From Lysobacterales bacterium (GTDB lineage Bacteria; Pseudomonadota; Gammaproteobacteria; Xanthomonadales; SZUA-38), in NCBI GenBank assembly GCA_030065125.1, contig JASJDM010000028.1:1-64000 (forward strand): a stretch of 64,000 nucleotides of DNA, given 5' to 3'. Shown in pieces: positions 1 to 9,735 of this stretch. Positions within the stretch are counted from its first letter, which is position 1; each line of letters starts with the position of its first letter. The notes under the pieces were generated by a model that saw nothing but the letters and a program-made list of their open reading frames with translations, was not told the origin of the DNA and did no database searches. Both the position numbers and the translations under genes were made by a program.

Positions 1-870
1 ATACTTGTTGAAAACTCAGTCGACCCGGCCATCACCGACAACACCATCAACGCTGCCGACAGTGTCGGCATCTCTGTGGAGGATACCACGGGTGCAACCG
101 TGCTCCGCAACACCGTTTCCGCATCGAACATCGGTTTTTCTCTCACCAATGCCTCCAATAACCGGGTGGAAGGCAACCAGTCAGACTTCAATGCCGTGGG
201 TTTGCGGGTGCGGTCTTCCAGCGACGGCAACGTAGTGACCCTCAACACGGTGACGAACAACCTGGTTGGCGTGCAGATCTCCAGCAGCGCCGATAATCAG
301 ATCTCTGAAAACGTGATCAGCAGCAACCAGGGCGCCGGAATCACGGTGTCACTGAATGACTCCACCGGCAATCGCATTTCAGAAAACGAGATGGCCGACA
401 ACGACACTCTGGGCATTGACCTCAATGACGACGGCATGACCGAGAATGACGCCAACGACGACGACAACGGCCCCAATCGGCTGCAGAATGCTCCGGAAGT
501 GACGATCACCAGTTTCTTTCCGGGACTGAAAGGCGGCGCCGGTGGCCCCGAAATTGAGCTGACCTATGTGGTCGACAGCACCATCACGGCTTCGGCATAC
601 CCCATGGACGTGGAACTGTTCCTGGCCTCGCCGTCCACGCCCGACCAGGGGCAGACGTTTCTGGTCAGCCTGAACTACAACACCCCCCAAAACCCGGCGT
701 CACTGGCGGTGACACTCCCCGACGGAACCGTTGGCGGGTGGATCGTTGCAACAGCCACTGACAGCAACGGCAACACATCAGAGTTTTCTGCACCGGCAAA
801 CTTCGGGCCGCCGGACGCGCTGTTTTCCGACTCCTTTGAAGCTGCGCCCATGGCCAAGCACCGGCGGTGA
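1..870 (+). CDS. Right-handed beta-helix secreted protein, C-terminal part
   Basis: The reading frame is open from the first base, so the N-terminus lies outside the window; 289 codons are visible. Repeated N-x-I/V-x-x-N turns in the first 130 residues are typical of PbH1 parallel beta-helix coils. They are followed by an Asp/Asn-rich stretch (LNDDGMTENDANDDDNG) and an Ig-like module ending in the TATDSNGNTSEFS signature that often closes such surface proteins. The protein ends LFSDSFE plus ten further residues, a variant of the F-x-x-G-F-E tail found at the exact C-terminus of two other secreted proteins here. Role is probably extracellular or surface-bound; no catalytic residues are recognisable. 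The family call is firm, the function unknown. Confidence 0.8.
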   Translation: MLVENSVDPAITDNTINAADSVGISVEDTTGATVLRNTVSASNIGFSLTNASNNRVEGNQSDFNAVGLRVRSSSDGNVVTLNTVTNNLVGVQISSSADNQISENVISSNQGAGITVSLNDSTGNRISENEMADNDTLGIDLNDDGMTENDANDDDNGPNRLQNAPEVTITSFFPGLKGGAGGPEIELTYVVDSTITASAYPMDVELFLASPSTPDQGQTFLVSLNYNTPQNPASLAVTLPDGTVGGWIVATATDSNGNTSEFSAPANFGPPDALFSDSFEAAPMAKHRR

Positions 871-1009
871 CAAAGCTTCGCTGAGTGCCTGGGTGCGACC
901 TCAAGGGTGGGCTTCCCAATGGACGCTCCAGCCCTGCCAACTGTCCGTGGCACACTTCGGTCCGAAATCCCGTACTCTATTTATAAGGTTTCAAAATAGG
1001 GGTCGCGGG

Positions 1010-3682
1010 ATGCTTCGGTTTTTTCTTCTGGTCGTCAGCCTGTTATACACAACCTGCCTGCTGTCAGCACCGCTGGGGAGCAACTTCAGCTATCAAGGAC
1101 AACTGCAACAGGCTGGCGCCAACGCCAACGGTGCTTTCGATTTCGAGTTTCGGCTGTTTGCCTCTCAATCGGGCGGTATTGCCATTGCCCCCTCCCCACT
1201 GCTGCGGGACGACGTCGATGTGGTGGACGGCATTTTTACCGTGGAGCTTGATTTTGGCGTGATGCCTTTCGCCGGTGACCGGCTGTGGCTGGAGATCAGT
1301 GTTCGGGAGGGTTCCAGCAGTGGTGGATACACGGGGCTGCTGCCCCGCCAGGAATTGACGGTGGCGCCCTATGCACTGCACTCGGAGTTCGTTGCGGCCG
1401 GCGCTGTCGGCGTTGACGAGATCAACCCCACACAGGTCCAGCAGCGTGTTGATGGCAGCTGCCCCACAGGGGCCTCCATCCGGGTGATTGCAGCCGACGG
1501 CACGGTGACCTGTGAATCCCACAATACCGCCAGCGGCGATATTACCGCCGTCATCGCGGGCACGGGGCTGAGCGGTGGCGCGGACAGCGGGGACGCCACC
1601 CTGGATGTGAATACCAGCGAGATTCAGAGCCGCATCAGCTCGTCCTGTGCCGCCGGCGAGTCGATTCGATCGGTGGATGCTGCGGGAAGTGTCGTGTGCG
1701 AGGTGGACGACGACACCACCTACAGCGCCGGCGCCGGCCTGAACCTGACCGACACCACCTTCAGCGTGGATGCGCCCCCCAACGTGATCATGGTGGCGCC
1801 ATCGGGCGGCGACTTCACCTCGGTCACCGCCGCCGTGAACGCAATCGGGGTTGATCCCAGCTACCCCGCGTCATCAGCCTCCAACCGCTACCTGGTCAAG
1901 GTGGCGCCCGGTGAGTACGACAACGAAGACATCGACATGAAACCCTACGTCGACATCGAGGGATCGGGCCAGGGCGTCACGGTGCTGCGCTCGGTAGCCG
2001 GCGCCGGCGGCATTACGCCGGATGCGGCCACCCTGGTGGGGGCGGACAACGCTGAATTGCGGGACATCACCGTTGAAATCGAGGCGGCTGCTCCGGGCAA
2101 CTGGATCTTCGCCATTTACACCGCCACCGACACCACCTTTCGTAACGTAACGGCAAGCGCCAACGGCGGAGACAAGGCCAGGGGGATGTTTATTGCCGCC
2201 GGCGGCAATGCCGTCCTGGTGGACGTCATTCTCATTGCCACATCGGCCACGGACTCCAACCTGGGGCTGGATCTGTTTGGCGGCGAAGCCTTCGCCGACG
2301 GGTTGTTTGTCCAGGCCTCGGGTGGCGCCATCGTGCAGGCGATCTTTCTGAACAACGCAGCGTCCGAGGTTCAGCTGGAGAATGTGACCATTCTGGCTTC
2401 CGGCGCCACCAGCGAAGTCACAGGCCTGCGCACCAACCTCAGCAGCGTGACGCTGGAGGGTCTGAACAATCGTGTCAGCAGCACTTCGGGGGTCGCATCG
2501 GGCATGGTTTGCGATGATCCGGGATTTTTCATCGACGTGCGCGGCAGCACCATTGGTGTTGACGATACCAGCGGCACCACCGCGGCGGGTATTCGGGCGA
2601 CCAGTTGCCATCTCGCACTGCGGGACACGCGAATCAAAGTCGACGCCGCCGGCAGCGCCAGGGGTATTGTGCACAGAATGGCCAGCTCGACTCAGGCCTC
2701 CAACCTGGCCATCCACGACGTTGAACTCACCGTAGAGTCAACCGGCTCCAATGCGTATGGGCTGGACTTCGGGGACGCCAGCGCAACGCCCGCGGGCCTG
2801 TTTGGCAAAGTGACCGACCTGACCGCTATCGTCACCGGCGGCAGCGCAGCCGTCAGTTCCCGCGTCATCGATCACCGGGCATCCGGCGAGGTTCAATACC
2901 GGGGGCTTTCATTGACCGGCCGTGGAACGGCCAACTTTTTTCAGGGCTTCCAGACGAGCGGAGACGGCAGTCCGCAGTTCAGTCACGTGGTCATCGATGT
3001 GGTGGTCGACGCCGCGACCACCGTTCTCGGCGCCGAGTTTTTTACCAACGCCAGCACATTGACCCATGCCAGGATCACCGCCATCAACACCGGGTCAGGG
3101 TCGGGTCACGACGCGGTAGGCATCAAGTCCAATGGCGCCAGCGAGGCCACGTTTACCGATGTCACAGCTTATGCCGAGGCCGAAACGGACGTTTGGGGCG
3201 CGGACCTGTCCGGCAGCACAACCCGAATCGTCCGGGTGGACGCTGCGGCAAGGTCTACCGGCAGCGGTCTCGGCTACGGGGCCCGCTGTGTGGGCGGCTC
3301 ATCTGAGATCTATCATTCGGCTTTCCTTGGTAACGCAGCGTCCAATACGTCTTACGGAATGCGGCTCATAGACTGTGACAGTACGATGGTGGAAAGCTCC
3401 CTGGTGGGTGGCGGGTCCGGCTTCAACCGCGGTGTAACCGCGCTCTCCAACTTGGGACAGAATAACAGCATCATCATCCGCGGCGGGCTGATATCCGGAT
3501 CGACAACAGCCCTATTCAATAACGGCAGCGGCAACTCGAAGATCCAGGTCATTCACGCCCAGCTGGATGGCGGCTCCAGTTTCGTGGGCAGCGCAACCGC
3601 ATCGCAGGAATGCACCGCCGTCACGTACAACTCGACAGGAACAGAGCTGTTCAACGATGGGCCTGTTTCTCCCTGCCCATAA
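1010..3682 (+). CDS. Secreted beta-helix (pectate-lyase-fold) surface protein
   Basis: The 890-residue protein starts at the ATG at 1010 rather than at upstream in-frame codons, because this start gives a clean signal peptide (MLRFFLLVVSLLYTTCLLSA). Residues about 24-125 form the FSYQGQLQ...DFEFRLF...APYALHS module common at the N-terminus of bacterial surface proteins. About 130-250 is a fibre-like linker with two Cys-containing copies (GSCPTGASIRVIAADG and SSCAAGESIRSVDAAG). From about 255 a pectate-lyase-type start (PSGGDFTSVTAAVNAIG, then YLVKVAPGEY) leads into a long beta-helix running to the C-terminus, with four to five late Cys. It has no F-x-x-G-F-E tail. No glycosidase or lyase active site is evident; an adhesin or structural role is as likely as an enzyme. 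Confidence 0.8.
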   Translation: MLRFFLLVVSLLYTTCLLSAPLGSNFSYQGQLQQAGANANGAFDFEFRLFASQSGGIAIAPSPLLRDDVDVVDGIFTVELDFGVMPFAGDRLWLEISVREGSSSGGYTGLLPRQELTVAPYALHSEFVAAGAVGVDEINPTQVQQRVDGSCPTGASIRVIAADGTVTCESHNTASGDITAVIAGTGLSGGADSGDATLDVNTSEIQSRISSSCAAGESIRSVDAAGSVVCEVDDDTTYSAGAGLNLTDTTFSVDAPPNVIMVAPSGGDFTSVTAAVNAIGVDPSYPASSASNRYLVKVAPGEYDNEDIDMKPYVDIEGSGQGVTVLRSVAGAGGITPDAATLVGADNAELRDITVEIEAAAPGNWIFAIYTATDTTFRNVTASANGGDKARGMFIAAGGNAVLVDVILIATSATDSNLGLDLFGGEAFADGLFVQASGGAIVQAIFLNNAASEVQLENVTILASGATSEVTGLRTNLSSVTLEGLNNRVSSTSGVASGMVCDDPGFFIDVRGSTIGVDDTSGTTAAGIRATSCHLALRDTRIKVDAAGSARGIVHRMASSTQASNLAIHDVELTVESTGSNAYGLDFGDASATPAGLFGKVTDLTAIVTGGSAAVSSRVIDHRASGEVQYRGLSLTGRGTANFFQGFQTSGDGSPQFSHVVIDVVVDAATTVLGAEFFTNASTLTHARITAINTGSGSGHDAVGIKSNGASEATFTDVTAYAEAETDVWGADLSGSTTRIVRVDAAARSTGSGLGYGARCVGGSSEIYHSAFLGNAASNTSYGMRLIDCDSTMVESSLVGGGSGFNRGVTALSNLGQNNSIIIRGGLISGSTTALFNNGSGNSKIQVIHAQLDGGSSFVGSATASQECTAVTYNSTGTELFNDGPVSPCP

Positions 3683-3744: not shown

Positions 3745-3784
3745 TGAACTTTTTTCCAGCCCATTGAACCTTTTTTCCCGCCCC
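3745..3784 (+). promoter_or_regulatory. Tandem ECF-like -35 motifs upstream of sigma gene
   Basis: TGAACTTTTTTCC (from 3745) and TGAACCTTTTTTCC (from 3765) repeat exactly 20 bp apart. TGAACTT resembles the GGAACTT -35 class used by many ECF sigma factors, which would fit autoregulation of the sigma gene starting at 3827. I could not find a convincing -10 at the usual 16-17 bp spacing for either copy, so promoter function is a guess. Confidence 0.35.
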
Positions 3785-3826
3785 TGGATCCTACCGGTGT
3801 CGCAGCAAAAGCCGGTGTTTTGAACG

Positions 3827-4384
3827 TTGAGCAGCCATTGGGCCAGCGATGACAGTGATCGGGAGTTGATGCAGCGGATCGCTCGCAAGCGGGACGCTGG
3901 CGCTTTTGAGCGCCTGTATCACCACTATCGCGATCGCCTGGGGCCCTTTATTTTTCGAGTGGTTCGGGATCCCGGGGCCAACGAAGAGGTATTCAACGAC
4001 GTGATGCTGGCGGTCTGGCGCAAGGGGTCCCAGTACAACGGCACGGCGCGGGTATCCACCTGGATTTTTGCCATTGCTTATCGCCAGTGCCTGAAAAAGC
4101 TGCGCGACCGCAGGCCTTTCGAGGAACTGGGCGAGCATCATCTGTCGGGGCCGGACGAGGAGCGCGGACGCGAACAGCGCGACCTGGTTCGGCGCGCACT
4201 GGAGCAGCTTTCCCCTAAGCACCGCATGGTCATCGAGCTATCCTATTTTCAGGGCAACAAGTACGAAGAAATCGCGGCAATCGCGGGCTGTCCGGCCAAC
4301 ACCATCAAGACCCGGATGTTTCATGCCCGCCGCCGACTGAAAGAGATCATGGAGAATCTGGGCGAGACCAGCCCGGCGGAGTAA
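3827..4384 (+). CDS. ECF-type RNA polymerase sigma factor
   Basis: This 185-residue protein has the two-domain ECF layout. Region 2 spans about residues 15-85 (FERLYHHYRDRLGPFIFRVV, then VWRKGSQYNGTARVSTWIF) and region 4 about 123-178 (LSPKHRMVIELSYFQGNKYEEIA, then TIKTRMFHARRRLKEIM). It would direct RNA polymerase to a dedicated promoter set. The start used here is a TTG; the ATG at 3869 (residue 15) is the alternative and would still leave region 2 intact. It is followed after 5 bases by a membrane anti-sigma factor and then a subtilase, indicating a signal-controlled three-gene unit. Tandem TGAAC motifs upstream may be its own target. Confidence 0.9.
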   Translation: MSSHWASDDSDRELMQRIARKRDAGAFERLYHHYRDRLGPFIFRVVRDPGANEEVFNDVMLAVWRKGSQYNGTARVSTWIFAIAYRQCLKKLRDRRPFEELGEHHLSGPDEERGREQRDLVRRALEQLSPKHRMVIELSYFQGNKYEEIAAIAGCPANTIKTRMFHARRRLKEIMENLGETSPAE

Positions 4385-4389
4385 TCATC

Positions 4390-4998
4390 ATGAGCAAAGT
4401 GACAAACTTGCCCACGGCGGCAGAGCTGGATGACGATCAGACCATCGTTGAGTATGTGCTGGACCGGTTGGCGCCCGACGCGCGGGCAGAGTTCGAGCTG
4501 CGGCTTGCCGAGAGTCCCGAGTTGTACGAGAAGGTTCAGGCAGAAAGGGCGCTGGCGGAACAGATCTACGGTGCAATTCCCGTAGAGCAACCCGGTCCGG
4601 AAGCTTTTGATCGAATCCGTTCCAGGGTTAACCCGGCAAGACAGCTTTCGCGGATCTGGCCGATCGCGGCCGCTATCGGGATCTGCGCCGTGGCCCTGAC
4701 CCTGGTGGTGCCACAGTTTTCCACAGAGCCTGAATTCGAGACCCTGTCCACCGACGAACCGGGCGGCGCTGCAGCGGGCCCAAACGTCGCCATACTGGTG
4801 TTCACCGCTGATCTGTCGCCGGACGAGATCGGCGCGGCCATCGAAAGCCTGAACCTGGAGCTGCTTGACGGCCCCGGGCCAGGCAGTGCCTACACTGTTA
4901 AAAGCTCGCAACCGATCAGCAACGCACTGCTCGAGAGCTGGCGACAGGATCCACGCATCGTCCTGGCCGAACGGACGGGCCCGAATACGTCGGATTGA
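4390..4998 (+). CDS. Membrane anti-sigma factor with propeptide-like periplasmic domain
   Basis: The 202-residue protein has a cytoplasmic N-terminus (residues 15-65, YVLDRLAPDARAEFELRLAE) of the type that precedes the helix of zinc-less anti-sigma factors; no HxxxCxxC zinc motif is present. One membrane span follows at about 88-108 (WPIAAAIGICAVALTLVV), then a periplasmic region. Residues 132-196 (VAILVFTADLSPDEIGAAI ... DPRIVLAE) read like the beta-alpha-beta propeptide/I9 inhibitor fold that caps subtilases, and the next gene encodes a subtilase. It probably sequesters the preceding sigma factor until a periplasmic or envelope event releases it. The anti-sigma call rests on gene order plus topology and is fairly firm; the propeptide resemblance is by eye. 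Confidence 0.75.
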   Translation: MSKVTNLPTAAELDDDQTIVEYVLDRLAPDARAEFELRLAESPELYEKVQAERALAEQIYGAIPVEQPGPEAFDRIRSRVNPARQLSRIWPIAAAIGICAVALTLVVPQFSTEPEFETLSTDEPGGAAAGPNVAILVFTADLSPDEIGAAIESLNLELLDGPGPGSAYTVKSSQPISNALLESWRQDPRIVLAERTGPNTSD

Positions 4999-5001
4999 AC
5001 C

Positions 5002-6273
5002 ATGAGAACCGGGTGGAAAATTCTTATCCTTTTTCTGGCCCTGTCGGGCGCCCGAGCGGAATTGGCAACCCAGGTCGCCGCGGACAAGACCGTGAACGAA
5101 GACCTGCAGTGGGTTGTTGTTCTGTCTGACCCGCGCCCGCCACGGCGCCGGGGCTGGGTGGCGGGCGCGGGCTACCGGTCCCAAAGCGCTTACGACCGGG
5201 ACCCGGCCCTGAGCCGCCTGACTGACGCCATAGCAGACGAACATAAGCTGGAGGTCGTGGACCAGTGGCCCGTGATGTCGTTGGCCGTTCATTGCCTGGT
5301 GATCAAGCTCGACAAGGAGGAGACGACCGTGCTGGATGCGCTGCGATCCGACAGCCGGGTTGAATGGGTGCAACCCCTCAACGAATTCGAGGCCAGGTCC
5401 AGTCCACGGCACAAAACCGGCACGGACCCCTATCGACCACTGCAGTCTGCCCTGGACTCGCTGAACGTCGAGTCAGTCACCCAGCGCTATGACGGCAGCG
5501 GCATCCAGATCGCCGTCATCGATTCCGGAGTGGAACCCGATCACCCCGACATCAGGCACGCCCTGGCCGACAACCGGAACTTTGTCGGCGGCAACGATGG
5601 CCACCACGCCGAGTCCCACGGCACGGGCATCGCAGGCGTACTGATCGCCAAGGCGCACAACCGTGAAGGTATATCCGGCGTGGCGCCTGGTGCCAGACTG
5701 CTCGCCTACCGCGCCTGCTGGGAAGGTGAATCCGGCATGACCCGGTGTAACAGCCTTACCCTTTCCCGTGCCCTGGATCGGGTCGTGGCAGCACGTCCCC
5801 ACATCGTGAACCTGAGCCTTACCGGACCACGCGATCGCCTGCTGGAACGACTCATGGATCGGATCATCGAAACGGGGGCAATCGTGGTAACCGCTCACGA
5901 CGAGAGACGCGCCCCCGCCGATAGATTTCCCGCCCCACGCTCGGGGCTATTGGTCGTTCACAACGGTTCGGGATTAAACGGTGCACCGGCGGGCGTCATT
6001 ACGGCACCCGGCAACGAAGTGCTGACGGCCCAACCCGGCCATCGCTACGATTTCATGTCCGGACACTCCCTGGCAGCAGCTCACGTCTCCGGCGTGCTGG
6101 CCCTGGTGCTGGAAGCACGCCCCGGAACCTCGGGCGAACGGGCTCAGGCTGTTTTTGCCGAGAGCACCCGCGGCCGCTCGGGCACCTACAGCATCGATGC
6201 CTGCCTCGCCGTCAGTATCGCCCTGGAAAACAGCCGGTGCGCCCTAGCGGAACGGGTAACTCAGTTTCAGTGA
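5002..6273 (+). CDS. Secreted S8 subtilisin-like serine protease
   Basis: The 423-residue precursor begins with a signal peptide (MRTGWKILILFLALSGARA). An I9-like prodomain runs from about residue 35 to 130 (WVVVLSD ... VEWVQPLNEFE). The S8 triad is Asp174 (AVIDSGVEPDHPD), His206 (SHGTGIAGV) and Ser356 (MSGHSLAAAHVSG). The Ser motif departs from the usual GTSMAxPHV, and where subtilases have the oxyanion Asn (AxGN) this protein reads TAHDERR, so catalysis may be altered. It starts 3 bases after the anti-sigma gene stop, so it belongs to the sigma operon and could be the protease that reads or cleaves the anti-sigma factor, or simply its target. Its last 30 bases overlap the convergent beta-barrel gene. 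Confidence 0.85.
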   Translation: MRTGWKILILFLALSGARAELATQVAADKTVNEDLQWVVVLSDPRPPRRRGWVAGAGYRSQSAYDRDPALSRLTDAIADEHKLEVVDQWPVMSLAVHCLVIKLDKEETTVLDALRSDSRVEWVQPLNEFEARSSPRHKTGTDPYRPLQSALDSLNVESVTQRYDGSGIQIAVIDSGVEPDHPDIRHALADNRNFVGGNDGHHAESHGTGIAGVLIAKAHNREGISGVAPGARLLAYRACWEGESGMTRCNSLTLSRALDRVVAARPHIVNLSLTGPRDRLLERLMDRIIETGAIVVTAHDERRAPADRFPAPRSGLLVVHNGSGLNGAPAGVITAPGNEVLTAQPGHRYDFMSGHSLAAAHVSGVLALVLEARPGTSGERAQAVFAESTRGRSGTYSIDACLAVSIALENSRCALAERVTQFQ

Positions 6274-6912
6274 CACCGTGCTCCGATCGCTGTGCAGCAG
6301 ATGGGCGTGGCTGTTGTTGATGTGATGCAGGGTCAGGGCCGCCTCGACCAAGCCAAATGAGGCGCCAAGCCCGAGCTCTGCAAACGCCAGGTCGTCCCCT
6401 GGCCGTCCAATCGCTCCAGCTCCGACCAGCAGATGCCGGTTTCGGGACAGCGGCCGGCGCCAGCGGAACGCCCCCAGCAAAGAGGATTCGCCACGGCCGT
6501 AGTAGTCATCTGAAACCGCTGCGGTCACGGCAAAATCCCGACTGAAATGAAAGTCCAGCCGGGCTTCGGAATAATTCCAGTCCCGGGGAAAGTCGCCTTC
6601 AAAATACTGGTGCGATATGGACAGTTCCAGCGCCTGCTGGTCGCCCAGGGTATGGAACCAGCCACCGTAAACCCCCGCGCCTCGGGTTCTCCCGGGGACG
6701 GGTGAAGCTGACGCTACGTATGCCTGAATGCCGGAAAACCAACCGGCCTGCCCGTTCCACTCAACAACGAGCCCTGCAGCAGGTTCGCCATCGGCCTCGG
6801 AGGCACCTCGATGAACAACCTCTGAATTCAGACTCCCTATCAGGCTCCATTCAGCCAACGCCGGCGTCGCGCCAACAAAAAACAACCAGACAATCCAGGG
6901 AAACCTGCTCAT
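6244..6912 (-). CDS. TIGR02001-like outer-membrane beta-barrel protein
   Basis: The 222-residue protein starts at the ATG at 6912, giving the signal peptide MSRFPWIVWLFFVGATPALA; an upstream in-frame start would add ten residues without a signal role. The mature part is made of short alternating hydrophobic/polar strands with aromatic girdles (ELSISHQYFEGDFPRDWNYSEARL) and ends in the terminal Phe-containing strand SLKLSYPFR, typical of outer-membrane barrels. The opening WSLIGSLNSEVVHRGASEADGEPA and overall length match the TorF/TIGR02001 putative-porin family of unknown substrate. The stop lies inside the convergent subtilase gene. Confidence 0.75.
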   Translation of the reverse strand: MSRFPWIVWLFFVGATPALAEWSLIGSLNSEVVHRGASEADGEPAAGLVVEWNGQAGWFSGIQAYVASASPVPGRTRGAGVYGGWFHTLGDQQALELSISHQYFEGDFPRDWNYSEARLDFHFSRDFAVTAAVSDDYYGRGESSLLGAFRWRRPLSRNRHLLVGAGAIGRPGDDLAFAELGLGASFGLVEAALTLHHINNSHAHLLHSDRSTVSLKLSYPFR

Positions 6913-7002: not shown

Positions 7003-7536
7003 TTAGTCGTCGTCAGACGTGGTCAGCGGACGCACCTGGCCACGCAACTCGCCTGCCGGATTCGCATCCGTGTGCAGGTTCCAGTAGATCAGGCCTTCAT
7101 CGATGGCGGCCGCCAGGGAAACCAGGTTGTTGACCGGCCTTCCAATAACGTCTTCGCAGGTGTTCTCAGGAAAGTCCACGTTGGTCAGAAAGCCGTTGAT
7201 CCGAAAGCCGTTGTCCGTGAAGTTCAGACTGTTGTCCAGAGCCGCGGAGATTCTGTCGACAATGCCAATAGCCACCGGACCGTTCTTGCCGGCGATGTTG
7301 CAGTGGAGGTGAAGCCGGGTCAACTCGCCCTGCAGTCTCCGATAAGTCACCCGGACCCGCGCCTCGCTGAAGTCTCTTTCAAAGCGAATCGTCGCGGTGG
7401 ATCTGCCGGCTGAATCGTTTACTGCGTTTTCAACCTCCTGGGCGCTGGAAAGCGCGGTTTTGGAAACAAACTCACCGGCCACAGCGGGACCGGAGATCAG
7501 TGCTGCGGCCAGTGCCGCCGGTGCAATCTTTTTCAT
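7003..7536 (-). CDS. CHRD-domain secreted protein
   Basis: A 177-residue protein with signal peptide MKKIAPAALAAALISGPAVA. The ATG at 7536 is preceded by AGGAG; a TTG one codon upstream is less likely. The body matches the CHRD domain: a start like FVSKTALSSAQEV, a central RVTYRRLQGELTRLHLHCNIAGKNGPVAIGI, and the ending IYWNLHTDANPAGELRGQV. CHRD domains occur in chordin and in many bacterial exported proteins of unknown biochemical role. Two Cys may form a disulfide. It is transcribed away from the cytochrome operon to its right and need not be linked to it. The short Asp-rich tail (SDDD) is its only oddity. Confidence 0.85.
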   Translation of the reverse strand: MKKIAPAALAAALISGPAVAGEFVSKTALSSAQEVENAVNDSAGRSTATIRFERDFSEARVRVTYRRLQGELTRLHLHCNIAGKNGPVAIGIVDRISAALDNSLNFTDNGFRINGFLTNVDFPENTCEDVIGRPVNNLVSLAAAIDEGLIYWNLHTDANPAGELRGQVRPLTTSDDD

Positions 7537-7882
7537 CAATCAAAGCTCCTGAAATTTTCTGAAATTGCTCTCGCCGGTGGCGGAACGTAGGGTTAATTCC
7601 AGTTGCGATGAAAAAGGTTCAATCAATTGACGGGTGTACGGCTTATCCGCTGATTCGAGGATGGATTTGCACTTGCCTTCAATTCCGTCCGCGGGAAGCC
7701 TCTCGGCCCAGGTAATTACCGTTGGCCAGGGGGCGACCCGTAAACCATTGCATTCCACGGCTCGTTCCGCGGCCGGTCCCGCATAGGTATTGGCAACGAG
7801 TTCCACCGCGTGTCCAGACTGGTATGCTGGTTATTGCCACAGCAGGGAAGTTCAGGCCCAGAGAGTCTGGTCAAGGGAAACG
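7537..7882. other. Divergent intergenic region with one weak ORF
   Basis: This 346-bp stretch separates the leftward CHRD gene from the rightward cytochrome operon and should hold both promoters; I found no strong -35/-10 pair on either strand. A minus-strand GTG-started ORF of 88 codons (7806 down to 7540) ends 3 bases before the CHRD start region and contains the CHRD ribosome-binding site. Its product (with VAPWPTVITWAERLPADGIEG) is not recognised. It could be a small translationally coupled gene or chance. Confidence 0.3.
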
Positions 7883-8431
7883 GTGCAGCGGAAGATATCT
7901 AAACTCACAGCCGGACTTGGATTGATTGCCACGGTGGCCACCGTCGGCTGGCTGGTGATCGATACCGGGCTGCACGCCACCGGCGGCTACGATTTCTGCA
8001 CGTCATGCCACAGCACCATGGCACCCATTGGCTTGGCCTACGAAGACGAACTGCACGGCGGCAATAACCCGGCCGGGTGGCGCGCCGAGTGCGTGGACTG
8101 TCACCTGCCCCACGGCAACTCGCTTTCCTACCTCCTGAGCAAGACCAGGCACGGCATTGTCGATCCGTGGGTGGAGATGACCACGGAACCCCTGGAAATC
8201 GATTGGCACACCAACCGGGAGCGGCGGGAAGAGTATGTCTACGACTCGGGCTGCCTGACCTGTCACCAGGCGCTGGAAACGACTTCCATGGGGAACCCCA
8301 AGGCGTTTCGCCCCCATCGTGATTACTTTGCGGGGGAGTCGGGCAAGCAGTGTGTATCCTGCCATCAGCACGTGGGGCATCGCGACCTGGGAACGCGGCT
8401 GGAAGAATTCGGATGGAGGAAACCGATATGA
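7883..8431 (+). CDS. NapC/NirT-family membrane tetraheme cytochrome c
   Basis: The chosen GTG start at 7883 sits 7 bases after AAGGG and puts an uncleaved membrane anchor at residues 8-28 (LTAGLGLIATVATVGWLVIDT). Four CxxCH haem sites follow at Cys39, Cys70, Cys124 and Cys157, as in the 180-200 residue NapC/NirT/CymA group. That group takes electrons from the quinol pool and hands them to periplasmic multihaem enzymes. The stop overlaps the start of the octahaem cytochrome gene (ATGA), so this is most likely its dedicated electron partner or quinone link. Direction of electron flow cannot be told from sequence. Confidence 0.9.
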   Translation: MQRKISKLTAGLGLIATVATVGWLVIDTGLHATGGYDFCTSCHSTMAPIGLAYEDELHGGNNPAGWRAECVDCHLPHGNSLSYLLSKTRHGIVDPWVEMTTEPLEIDWHTNRERREEYVYDSGCLTCHQALETTSMGNPKAFRPHRDYFAGESGKQCVSCHQHVGHRDLGTRLEEFGWRKPI

Positions 8432-9735
8432 ACTGGATCATCAGGGCCGTGACTCTGCTGATACTGTCGGGTCCCGCAGTGGCCCAGGACGCCGCCATGG
8501 GCGATATGGCCCAGGTCAAGACCATTGAGGTCCACCGGGGTCTGACCGTGGAAGGCCGGGCCTGTGTCGATTGCCATAAGCACTTCCAGCCGGGCATCCT
8601 GGCCGACTGGAAAGACAGCCGACACGCCCATGCGGGTGTTTCCTGTATCGACTGCCACGCCGTGCCCGCGGACTCCCCCATGGCAGTTACCCATGCCGAA
8701 CTGGGCGAGGAAATCGTGACCGTGTCCTCCCTGGTGTCGCCCGCGGTCTGCGGCCGCTGCCACGTCAAGGCCAAAGCGCAATTTGATGCCTCAGGCCATT
8801 TCCGCTCTTACCACCAGATCATCCCCAAGGACAACCTGCATGCACTGACCCAGGTGCACGAGGGCCAGAGCCATCCCGAATTTGGCGGCGCGCCCAACGA
8901 GACGGGCTGCATGCAGTGCCATGGCACGAAGATCAAGCTGAACGGAGACAATCGCCCTACCCCGGACACCTGGCCCAACAACGGAATGGGCAATATCTAT
9001 CCCGATGGCGCCACGGGCAACTGCACGGCCTGTCACAGCCGTCACAAGTTTTCCATCGCCGAAGCCCGCAAACCCAACGCCTGCGCCTCCTGCCACCTGG
9101 GGCCGGACCACCCCAACATCGAGATTTACACCAACTCGAAGCACGGCCACATCTACAACACCGACAGCGACGACTGGAACTGGGACACCGCACCCGACGC
9201 CTGGGAACCGGGTGACTACCGGGCGCCGACCTGCGCCACCTGCCATATGAGCGGCATTGGTGACCTGGAAGTAACCCACAACGTGACCGAACGGCTCTAC
9301 TGGAACCTGTGGGCCAAGGAATCAAAGGTGCGCGGCTCAGACGATGTGCTGAGCCCGATCCTGGGTGACGGCCCGGCCGGCCGGGAAAAGATGAAAAAGG
9401 TCTGCAACAACTGCCACAGCACCCTGCATACCGACGGCTTCTTCACCCAGGGCGACAAGGCCGTGAACCTGTACAACGAAGCCTACTACCGCCCGGCCAC
9501 GGCCATGCTGGAAGAGCTGCGTGAAAAGGATCTGCTGAAAGCCAACCCGTGGACCGACGAGTTCCAGATCACCTACTACTACCTGTGGCACCACCAGGGC
9601 CGGCGCGCCCGCCAGGGTGCCATGATGGGGGCCGCGGATTACGCCCACTGGCACGGCTTCTTTGAGCTGCAGCAGGATCTGTACAAGCTGCAGCAGATCC
9701 ACAAGGCCAGGCTGGAAAGCGGCGCGATCGAGTAG
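8428..9735 (+). CDS. Octahaem hydroxylamine oxidoreductase-like cytochrome c
   Basis: The 435-residue precursor has signal peptide MNWIIRAVTLLILSGPAVAQ and eight CxxCH sites (Cys46, 73, 108, 161, 199, 219, 269, 326). The stretch around haems 5-7 (SRHKFSIAEARKPNACASCH, then DHPNIEIYTNSKHG and DDWNWD) closely follows hydroxylamine oxidoreductase. The C-terminal transmembrane tail of nitrifier HAO is absent. A Tyr at 405 (GAADYAHWHG) falls near where HAO carries its haem-crosslinking Tyr by my by-eye alignment; homologues without that crosslink are thought to work reductively on nitrite or hydroxylamine. ATGA coupling to the NapC/NirT-type gene mirrors the haoA'-cytochrome pairs of Epsilonproteobacteria. 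No ammonia oxidation genes are nearby. Confidence 0.88.
   Translation: MNWIIRAVTLLILSGPAVAQDAAMGDMAQVKTIEVHRGLTVEGRACVDCHKHFQPGILADWKDSRHAHAGVSCIDCHAVPADSPMAVTHAELGEEIVTVSSLVSPAVCGRCHVKAKAQFDASGHFRSYHQIIPKDNLHALTQVHEGQSHPEFGGAPNETGCMQCHGTKIKLNGDNRPTPDTWPNNGMGNIYPDGATGNCTACHSRHKFSIAEARKPNACASCHLGPDHPNIEIYTNSKHGHIYNTDSDDWNWDTAPDAWEPGDYRAPTCATCHMSGIGDLEVTHNVTERLYWNLWAKESKVRGSDDVLSPILGDGPAGREKMKKVCNNCHSTLHTDGFFTQGDKAVNLYNEAYYRPATAMLEELREKDLLKANPWTDEFQITYYYLWHHQGRRARQGAMMGAADYAHWHGFFELQQDLYKLQQIHKARLESGAIE

Follow-up and report, generated by a model that had tools for sequence, protein, structure and literature searches.

A sigma/anti-sigma/subtilase cassette whose anti-sigma factor ends in a predicted subtilase-prodomain homologue

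The window, by which we mean the whole stretch of 64,000 nucleotides analysed here, carries at 3827-6273 the genes of an ECF sigma factor, a single-pass anti-sigma factor and a subtilase, as can be read directly from the DNA:

3827..4384, plus strand: ECF sigma factor (Pfam Sigma70_r2 and Sigma70_r4_2 above cut-off; NCBIfam sigma70-ECF, 2.7e-25)
4390..4998, plus strand: anti-sigma factor, 202 amino acids, with an N-terminal anti-sigma domain and one transmembrane (TM) segment (~89-110)
5002..6273, plus strand: subtilase (S8), 423 amino acids, with signal peptide, its own propeptide and a catalytic domain (PF00082, E 2e-28)

In Pfam, the sigma factor has sigma-70 regions 2 and 4 and no others, as is characteristic of the ECF type. 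Its coordinates assume a TTG start; a later start is possible. The subtilase gene begins 3 bases after the anti-sigma stop, as the initial annotation had stated (stop at 4996-4998, ATG at 5002). These two genes share a reading frame, so that reading the TGA as Trp yields a natural read-through product. The anti-sigma gene is a single-copy gene in its own genome. Next to the module, at 7790-9735 of the window, lie the gene of a NapC/NirT-type cytochrome and then that of a multihaem cytochrome c.

A Pfam search with the anti-sigma protein of the window gave no match, and its NCBIfam antisigma match (2e-11) is under the cut-off of that model. The profile of the cassette anti-sigma factors, at positions 10-92, matched the structures of ChrR, RsiW and RslA (E 5e-5 to 2e-4), and residues 12-71 aligned to RslA at Z 6.1 (VIA). 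With a cytoplasmic anti-sigma domain, one TM segment and a gene located 3′ of its sigma gene, the protein belongs to the membrane anti-sigma factors. A juxtamembrane [YF]xTL[ST] at residues 115-120 is conserved.

The periplasmic end of this protein had been noted for its likeness to a subtilase propeptide, and the likeness was borne out both by the predicted fold and by a comparison of profiles in which shuffled profiles were the control. Two features are needed here:

4783..4977, plus strand: anti-sigma C-terminal domain (CTD), residues 132-196, with the subtilase-prodomain fold b-a-b-b-a-b (AF2, Foldseek, VIA, hhalign)
5104..5376, plus strand: the subtilase's own propeptide, residues ~35-125 (AF2 fusion model; VIA)

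AlphaFold2, run with a 30-row alignment, predicted strand-helix-strand-strand-helix-strand for CTD residues 133-195 with pLDDT of ~95. This is a fold of the I9/propeptide type and not an unlike one. In Foldseek against the PDB, ranks 1-13 went without exception to prodomains of subtilases or convertases or to the I9 inhibitor POIA1 (E-values of 4e-3 to 3e-2, which are for the whole 202-residue query). The best VIA-align match was the PC1/3 prodomain (Z 8.6, 69 residues, 2.8 A), followed mainly by other prodomains. On these three predictions the CTD is a member of the prodomain fold (I9 or Fervidolysin_NPro-like). Unrelated ferredoxin-like folds score Z ~7 against it in VIA-align, and therefore the fold by itself is no proof of kinship.

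The profiles go further. When the CTD profile was compared by hhalign with the profile of the own propeptides of the cassette subtilases, the result was 88.9% (score 35.7), against 2.6% (score 16.6) for the best of 200 column-shuffled controls; we therefore rejected a chance resemblance. Four other partners for the CTD (sigma factor, anti-sigma N-terminus, porin, catalytic domain) gave 0.4% or less. In 339 genomes, the CTD profile found anti-sigma factors and, with weaker scores, prodomains of unlinked subtilases, which sit upstream of their catalytic domains. In one relative, the cassette anti-sigma factor L090, zf-HC2 and PF22148 (Fervidolysin_NPro-like) are found in one protein, both above Pfam cut-offs (PF22148, 24.7 bits against a cut-off of 21). 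Across 26 CTDs, nine had weak matches to PF22148; the CTD of the window had none. No significant match came from searching the PDB sequences directly with the profile of the CTD or that of the propeptide. Judged by its sequence profile, the CTD is homologous to the own propeptide of the adjacent subtilase. The tail that follows it at the C-terminus is 4-7 residues long in 27 of 30 relatives.

The subtilase has the S8 fold and the Asp/His/Ser triad of its family (D174/H206/S356). For the natural read-through of anti-sigma factor and subtilase (TGA read as Trp), the AF2 fusion model showed prodomain topology at its residues 239-329, with pLDDT of ~90-96 except in the loop 258-264. The own propeptide and the catalytic domain together aligned to pro-subtilisin E (Z 30.8, 319 residues, 3.5 A; VIA), with the own propeptide occupying the prodomain site of the protease. 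We considered a subtilase without a propeptide, for which the anti-sigma factor would be a chaperone in trans, and rejected it on account of the own propeptide seen in the fusion model and by VIA. Since the subtilase has its own propeptide, the CTD is a second, membrane-tethered copy. In the same model, the CTD keeps its fold and lies beyond the range aligned to pro-subtilisin E; with the own propeptide docked, the model therefore gives no verdict on docking of the CTD.

Our best explanation, to which we give an even chance, is that this is an autoregulated ECF module, in which the anti-sigma factor would sense its subtilase via the second propeptide copy as a periplasmic sensor. The retention of an own propeptide also suits another arrangement. 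In SREBP signalling, the subtilase S1P has a membrane partner, SPRING, and human SPRING displaces the S1P prodomain (PMC11231238). By analogy, the CTD might displace the inhibitory propeptide of the cassette subtilase and so activate the protease at the membrane, with control of sigma being secondary. The two systems would share a subtilase in a transcription-release pathway and a membrane partner at the prodomain site, the latter proposed for the cassette by analogy only. They differ in that S1P/SPRING is eukaryotic and without an anti-sigma factor, and in that S1P keeps its oxyanion Asn (N338). SPRING is also not described as a propeptide homologue in the passages of PMC11231238 that we consulted, and we regard such licensing as very improbable.

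A survey of genomes for co-occurrence of the three genes had been proposed, and it showed this co-occurrence to be strong and ancient. At order level, 35 of 36 anti-sigma relatives (30 strong and 6 weak) had a sigma gene upstream and an adjacent subtilase gene; at phylum level, all 25 subtilase relatives adjoined an anti-sigma factor with a CTD, and sigma was present in all loci except two that were cut by their edge. An oddity specific to the window was rejected by this recurrence. The order-level exception (L060/L114) has only a subtilase remnant. At L114:2080-2820, a paralogous sigma/anti-sigma pair is followed by this short remnant, and the genome has a second, intact cassette (L108). A scan of the genome collection with the subtilase as query gave one distant Bacteroidales locus and nothing else. 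The linkage of sigma factor, anti-sigma factor and subtilase is old and widespread in Pseudomonadota.

When the CTD alone was the query, at class level, 18 of 23 testable anti-sigma factors adjoined a subtilase; three further ones, outside the 23, were at contig ends. Three of the five without a subtilase form one orthologous set between dapB and carA, and in another of the five a PilZ-like gene comes next, downstream (these neighbour names were assigned by eye). In L148, L149 and L150, the conserved pair of sigma gene and CTD anti-sigma gene has dapB on one side and, on the other, a Gfo/Idh-like gene close to carA; no protease gene adjoins the pair. At L152:1961-3978, the gene after that of the CTD anti-sigma factor encodes no subtilase but a protein with a caspase domain (PF00656, E 3e-37) and a Sel1 repeat, as though a caspase had replaced the original protease.

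The five loci mean that the CTD can exist without an adjacent subtilase. They count against sensing by propeptide mimicry, as does the placement of the own propeptide in the protease site of the fusion model, and they agree with re-use of the domain without contact. Here a captured prodomain-type alpha/beta domain would sense another envelope signal, and the subtilase would belong to the regulon, its task being to mature or degrade proteins of the envelope. The frequency of ferredoxin-like folds fits this, as does the Z of 7 reached by other families. The near-complete linkage across the phylum and the specific profile homology to subtilase propeptides speak against such re-use, which we consider unlikely.

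The oxyanion-hole Asn is usual in peptidase S8, though not universal. In the window subtilase it had been noted as missing from 'TAHDERR', and an alignment of 95 subtilases agreed:

5902..5904, plus strand: Glu301, in the column equivalent to Asn155, in place of the oxyanion-hole Asn

This Asn is absent from the window subtilase and from the whole of its 48-member clade. In the catalytic-domain tree, the 48 Asn-less subtilases (48/48) formed one clade with support of 0.82. Of these, 47 are in cassettes and the remaining one, L036, begins at a contig edge; in the L036 genome, a CTD anti-sigma factor was found at a different contig edge. A cassette branch bearing the Asn also exists (L041, L042, L091-L106, L154-L158). 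Asp, His and Ser are retained in all sequences of the alignment that cover those positions. We rejected a pseudoprotease on sequence because the triad is invariant. The residue before the catalytic Ser is Thr in 37 of 39 Asn-bearing enzymes and never Thr in the Asn-less ones, where it is mainly Ser, His or Asn. As far as the alignment and the tree can tell, the oxyanion Asn was lost once, with the triad intact.

The neighbourhood of the module contains the following:

3764..3794, plus strand: predicted ECF-type promoter TTGAACCTTTTTTCCCGCCCCTGGATCCTAC, 5′ of the sigma gene (exact TTGAACCTTTTT-N8-CTGGA)
6244..6912, minus strand: putative outer-membrane porin of the TorF family (gcw_chp, TIGR02001; NCBIfam E 5e-5, below the curated cut-off)
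7003..7536, minus strand: CHRD-domain secreted protein (PF07452, E 1.3e-17)
7592..7622, minus strand: predicted second promoter of the same sigma, TTGAACCTTTTTCATCGCAACTGGAATTAAC, 5′ of the CHRD gene (the other genome-wide motif match)

The TorF gene is convergent with the subtilase gene, and the CHRD gene is upstream of the TorF gene on the same strand. With up to two mismatches allowed, TTGAACCTTTTT-N8-CTGGA had two sites in the 6.5-Mb genome, at 3764 (plus) and 7622 (minus), and the reversed pattern, as a control, had one match. Because the pattern was built from its two sites, the count of two shows rarity and not function. Of 68 loci, 20 have a looser AACC-N18/19-YYWA 5′ of the sigma gene, whereas 2.1% of mononucleotide shuffles contain it. 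We read the pair of motifs as a probable small local envelope regulon of this sigma factor. Immediately 5′ of the sigma promoter, an open frame of 983 amino acids (731-3682) has no Pfam match and is probably secreted.

A putative porin of the TorF family adjoins most of the Asn-less cassettes; next to Asn-bearing cassettes it was not found. At L166:2111-5281, a 1056-aa protein similar to the CHRD protein of the window has both a TorF gene and an Asn-less cassette beside it, which suggests that the CHRD-TorF linkage occurs elsewhere too. On the minus strand of L169 (near 8185 and 4837), the sigma-promoter motif recurs 5′ of the gene for a secreted protein that is rich in repeats and very long (1579 aa in the stretch analysed), a possible further member of the regulon.

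The porin next to Asn-less cassettes is among the observations that suit a negative-feedback tether. The CTD would then be a membrane-anchored inhibitor of the I9 type that keeps the subtilase silent. The docked subtilase would stabilise the anti-sigma factor, and a substrate, for example unassembled TorF or the CHRD protein, would draw the protease away and so release sigma. One of the folds nearest to the CTD is that of POIA1, a stand-alone inhibitor of the I9 type, the CTD tail is short and of near-constant length, and a weakened oxyanion hole favours binding over turnover. The invariant catalytic triad argues, on the contrary, that activity has been selected. This tether is possible, if rather unlikely; it stands close behind the best explanation because the product-like tail of 4-7 residues resembles an inhibitor more than a substrate.

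In canonical ECF/anti-sigma systems (RseA-DegS-RseP; RsiW), sigma is released by regulated proteolysis. The cassette is like them in its ECF sigma factor, single-pass anti-sigma factor with a cytoplasmic anti-sigma domain and a periplasmic sensor, and autoregulated operon. It is unlike them in having a subtilase prodomain as its proposed sensor and, within the operon, a gene for a dedicated subtilase; to our knowledge, no subtilase-prodomain domain occurs in RseA or RsiW. We rate the cassette as an ECF/anti-sigma switch of known type with an unusual sensor. With the prosubtilisin propeptide, POIA1 and PF22148, the CTD shares the same fold, detectable sequence homology and a short C-terminal tail. 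It differs in forming the periplasmic part of an anti-sigma factor, where it stands in trans to a protease that has retained a propeptide of its own. The ECF54 group resembles the cassette as an ECF sigma with a subtilase neighbour. ECF54 has subtilase, carboxypeptidase and CHAT genes nearby, is described without an anti-sigma factor and has been proposed to be under proteolytic control (PMC8999054); the window and its relatives have an anti-sigma factor and in this do not fit the description of that group. No description of the module of sigma factor, CTD anti-sigma factor and subtilase was found in the open papers searched; the main ECF classification may list the gene neighbourhood.

Sensing of the subtilase by the anti-sigma factor could proceed as follows. 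The analysis shows the fold and homology of the CTD, the conserved linkage, the loss of Asn at a single origin in enzymes that keep the triad, and the motif at two sites; docking, cleavage, the signal and its direction are inferred. Once exported and rid of its own propeptide, by removal or displacement, the subtilase would dock on the tethered CTD. The short C-terminal tail of the CTD can occupy the active site in the manner of propeptide-subtilisin complexes. Held there, a protease slowed by its weakened oxyanion hole might gradually destroy the CTD or clip the juxtamembrane segment. It speaks against this course that a tail filling the active site would block a simultaneous cut in the linker, so that cleavage would require the two to meet again or the CTD to be degraded slowly. 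Destruction of the CTD or clipping of the juxtamembrane segment would be the site-1 cut, after which the usual intramembrane protease would free sigma. Freed sigma would transcribe the CHRD-TorF operon as well as its own, the latter yielding more anti-sigma factor and subtilase. What is sensed would be how much free subtilase there is or how far it has matured, and envelope substrates, TorF for instance, might modulate this state.

In its general form, the proposal is of a phylum-wide, ancient ECF switch that senses a dedicated protease via a tethered propeptide homologue, one branch having re-tuned the protease through loss of both usual oxyanion side chains; we hold it to be as probable as improbable. 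Binding is easy to test with a domain pair of ~70 and ~260 residues. The Asn-less, triad-intact subtilases raise the question of the purpose of slow or non-canonical subtilase catalysis. If the proposal is true, there would be a direct molecular link from the maturation state of a protease to transcription, with the protease's own inhibitor as receptor, and a widespread ECF group, undescribed in the open papers searched, would gain a testable signal.
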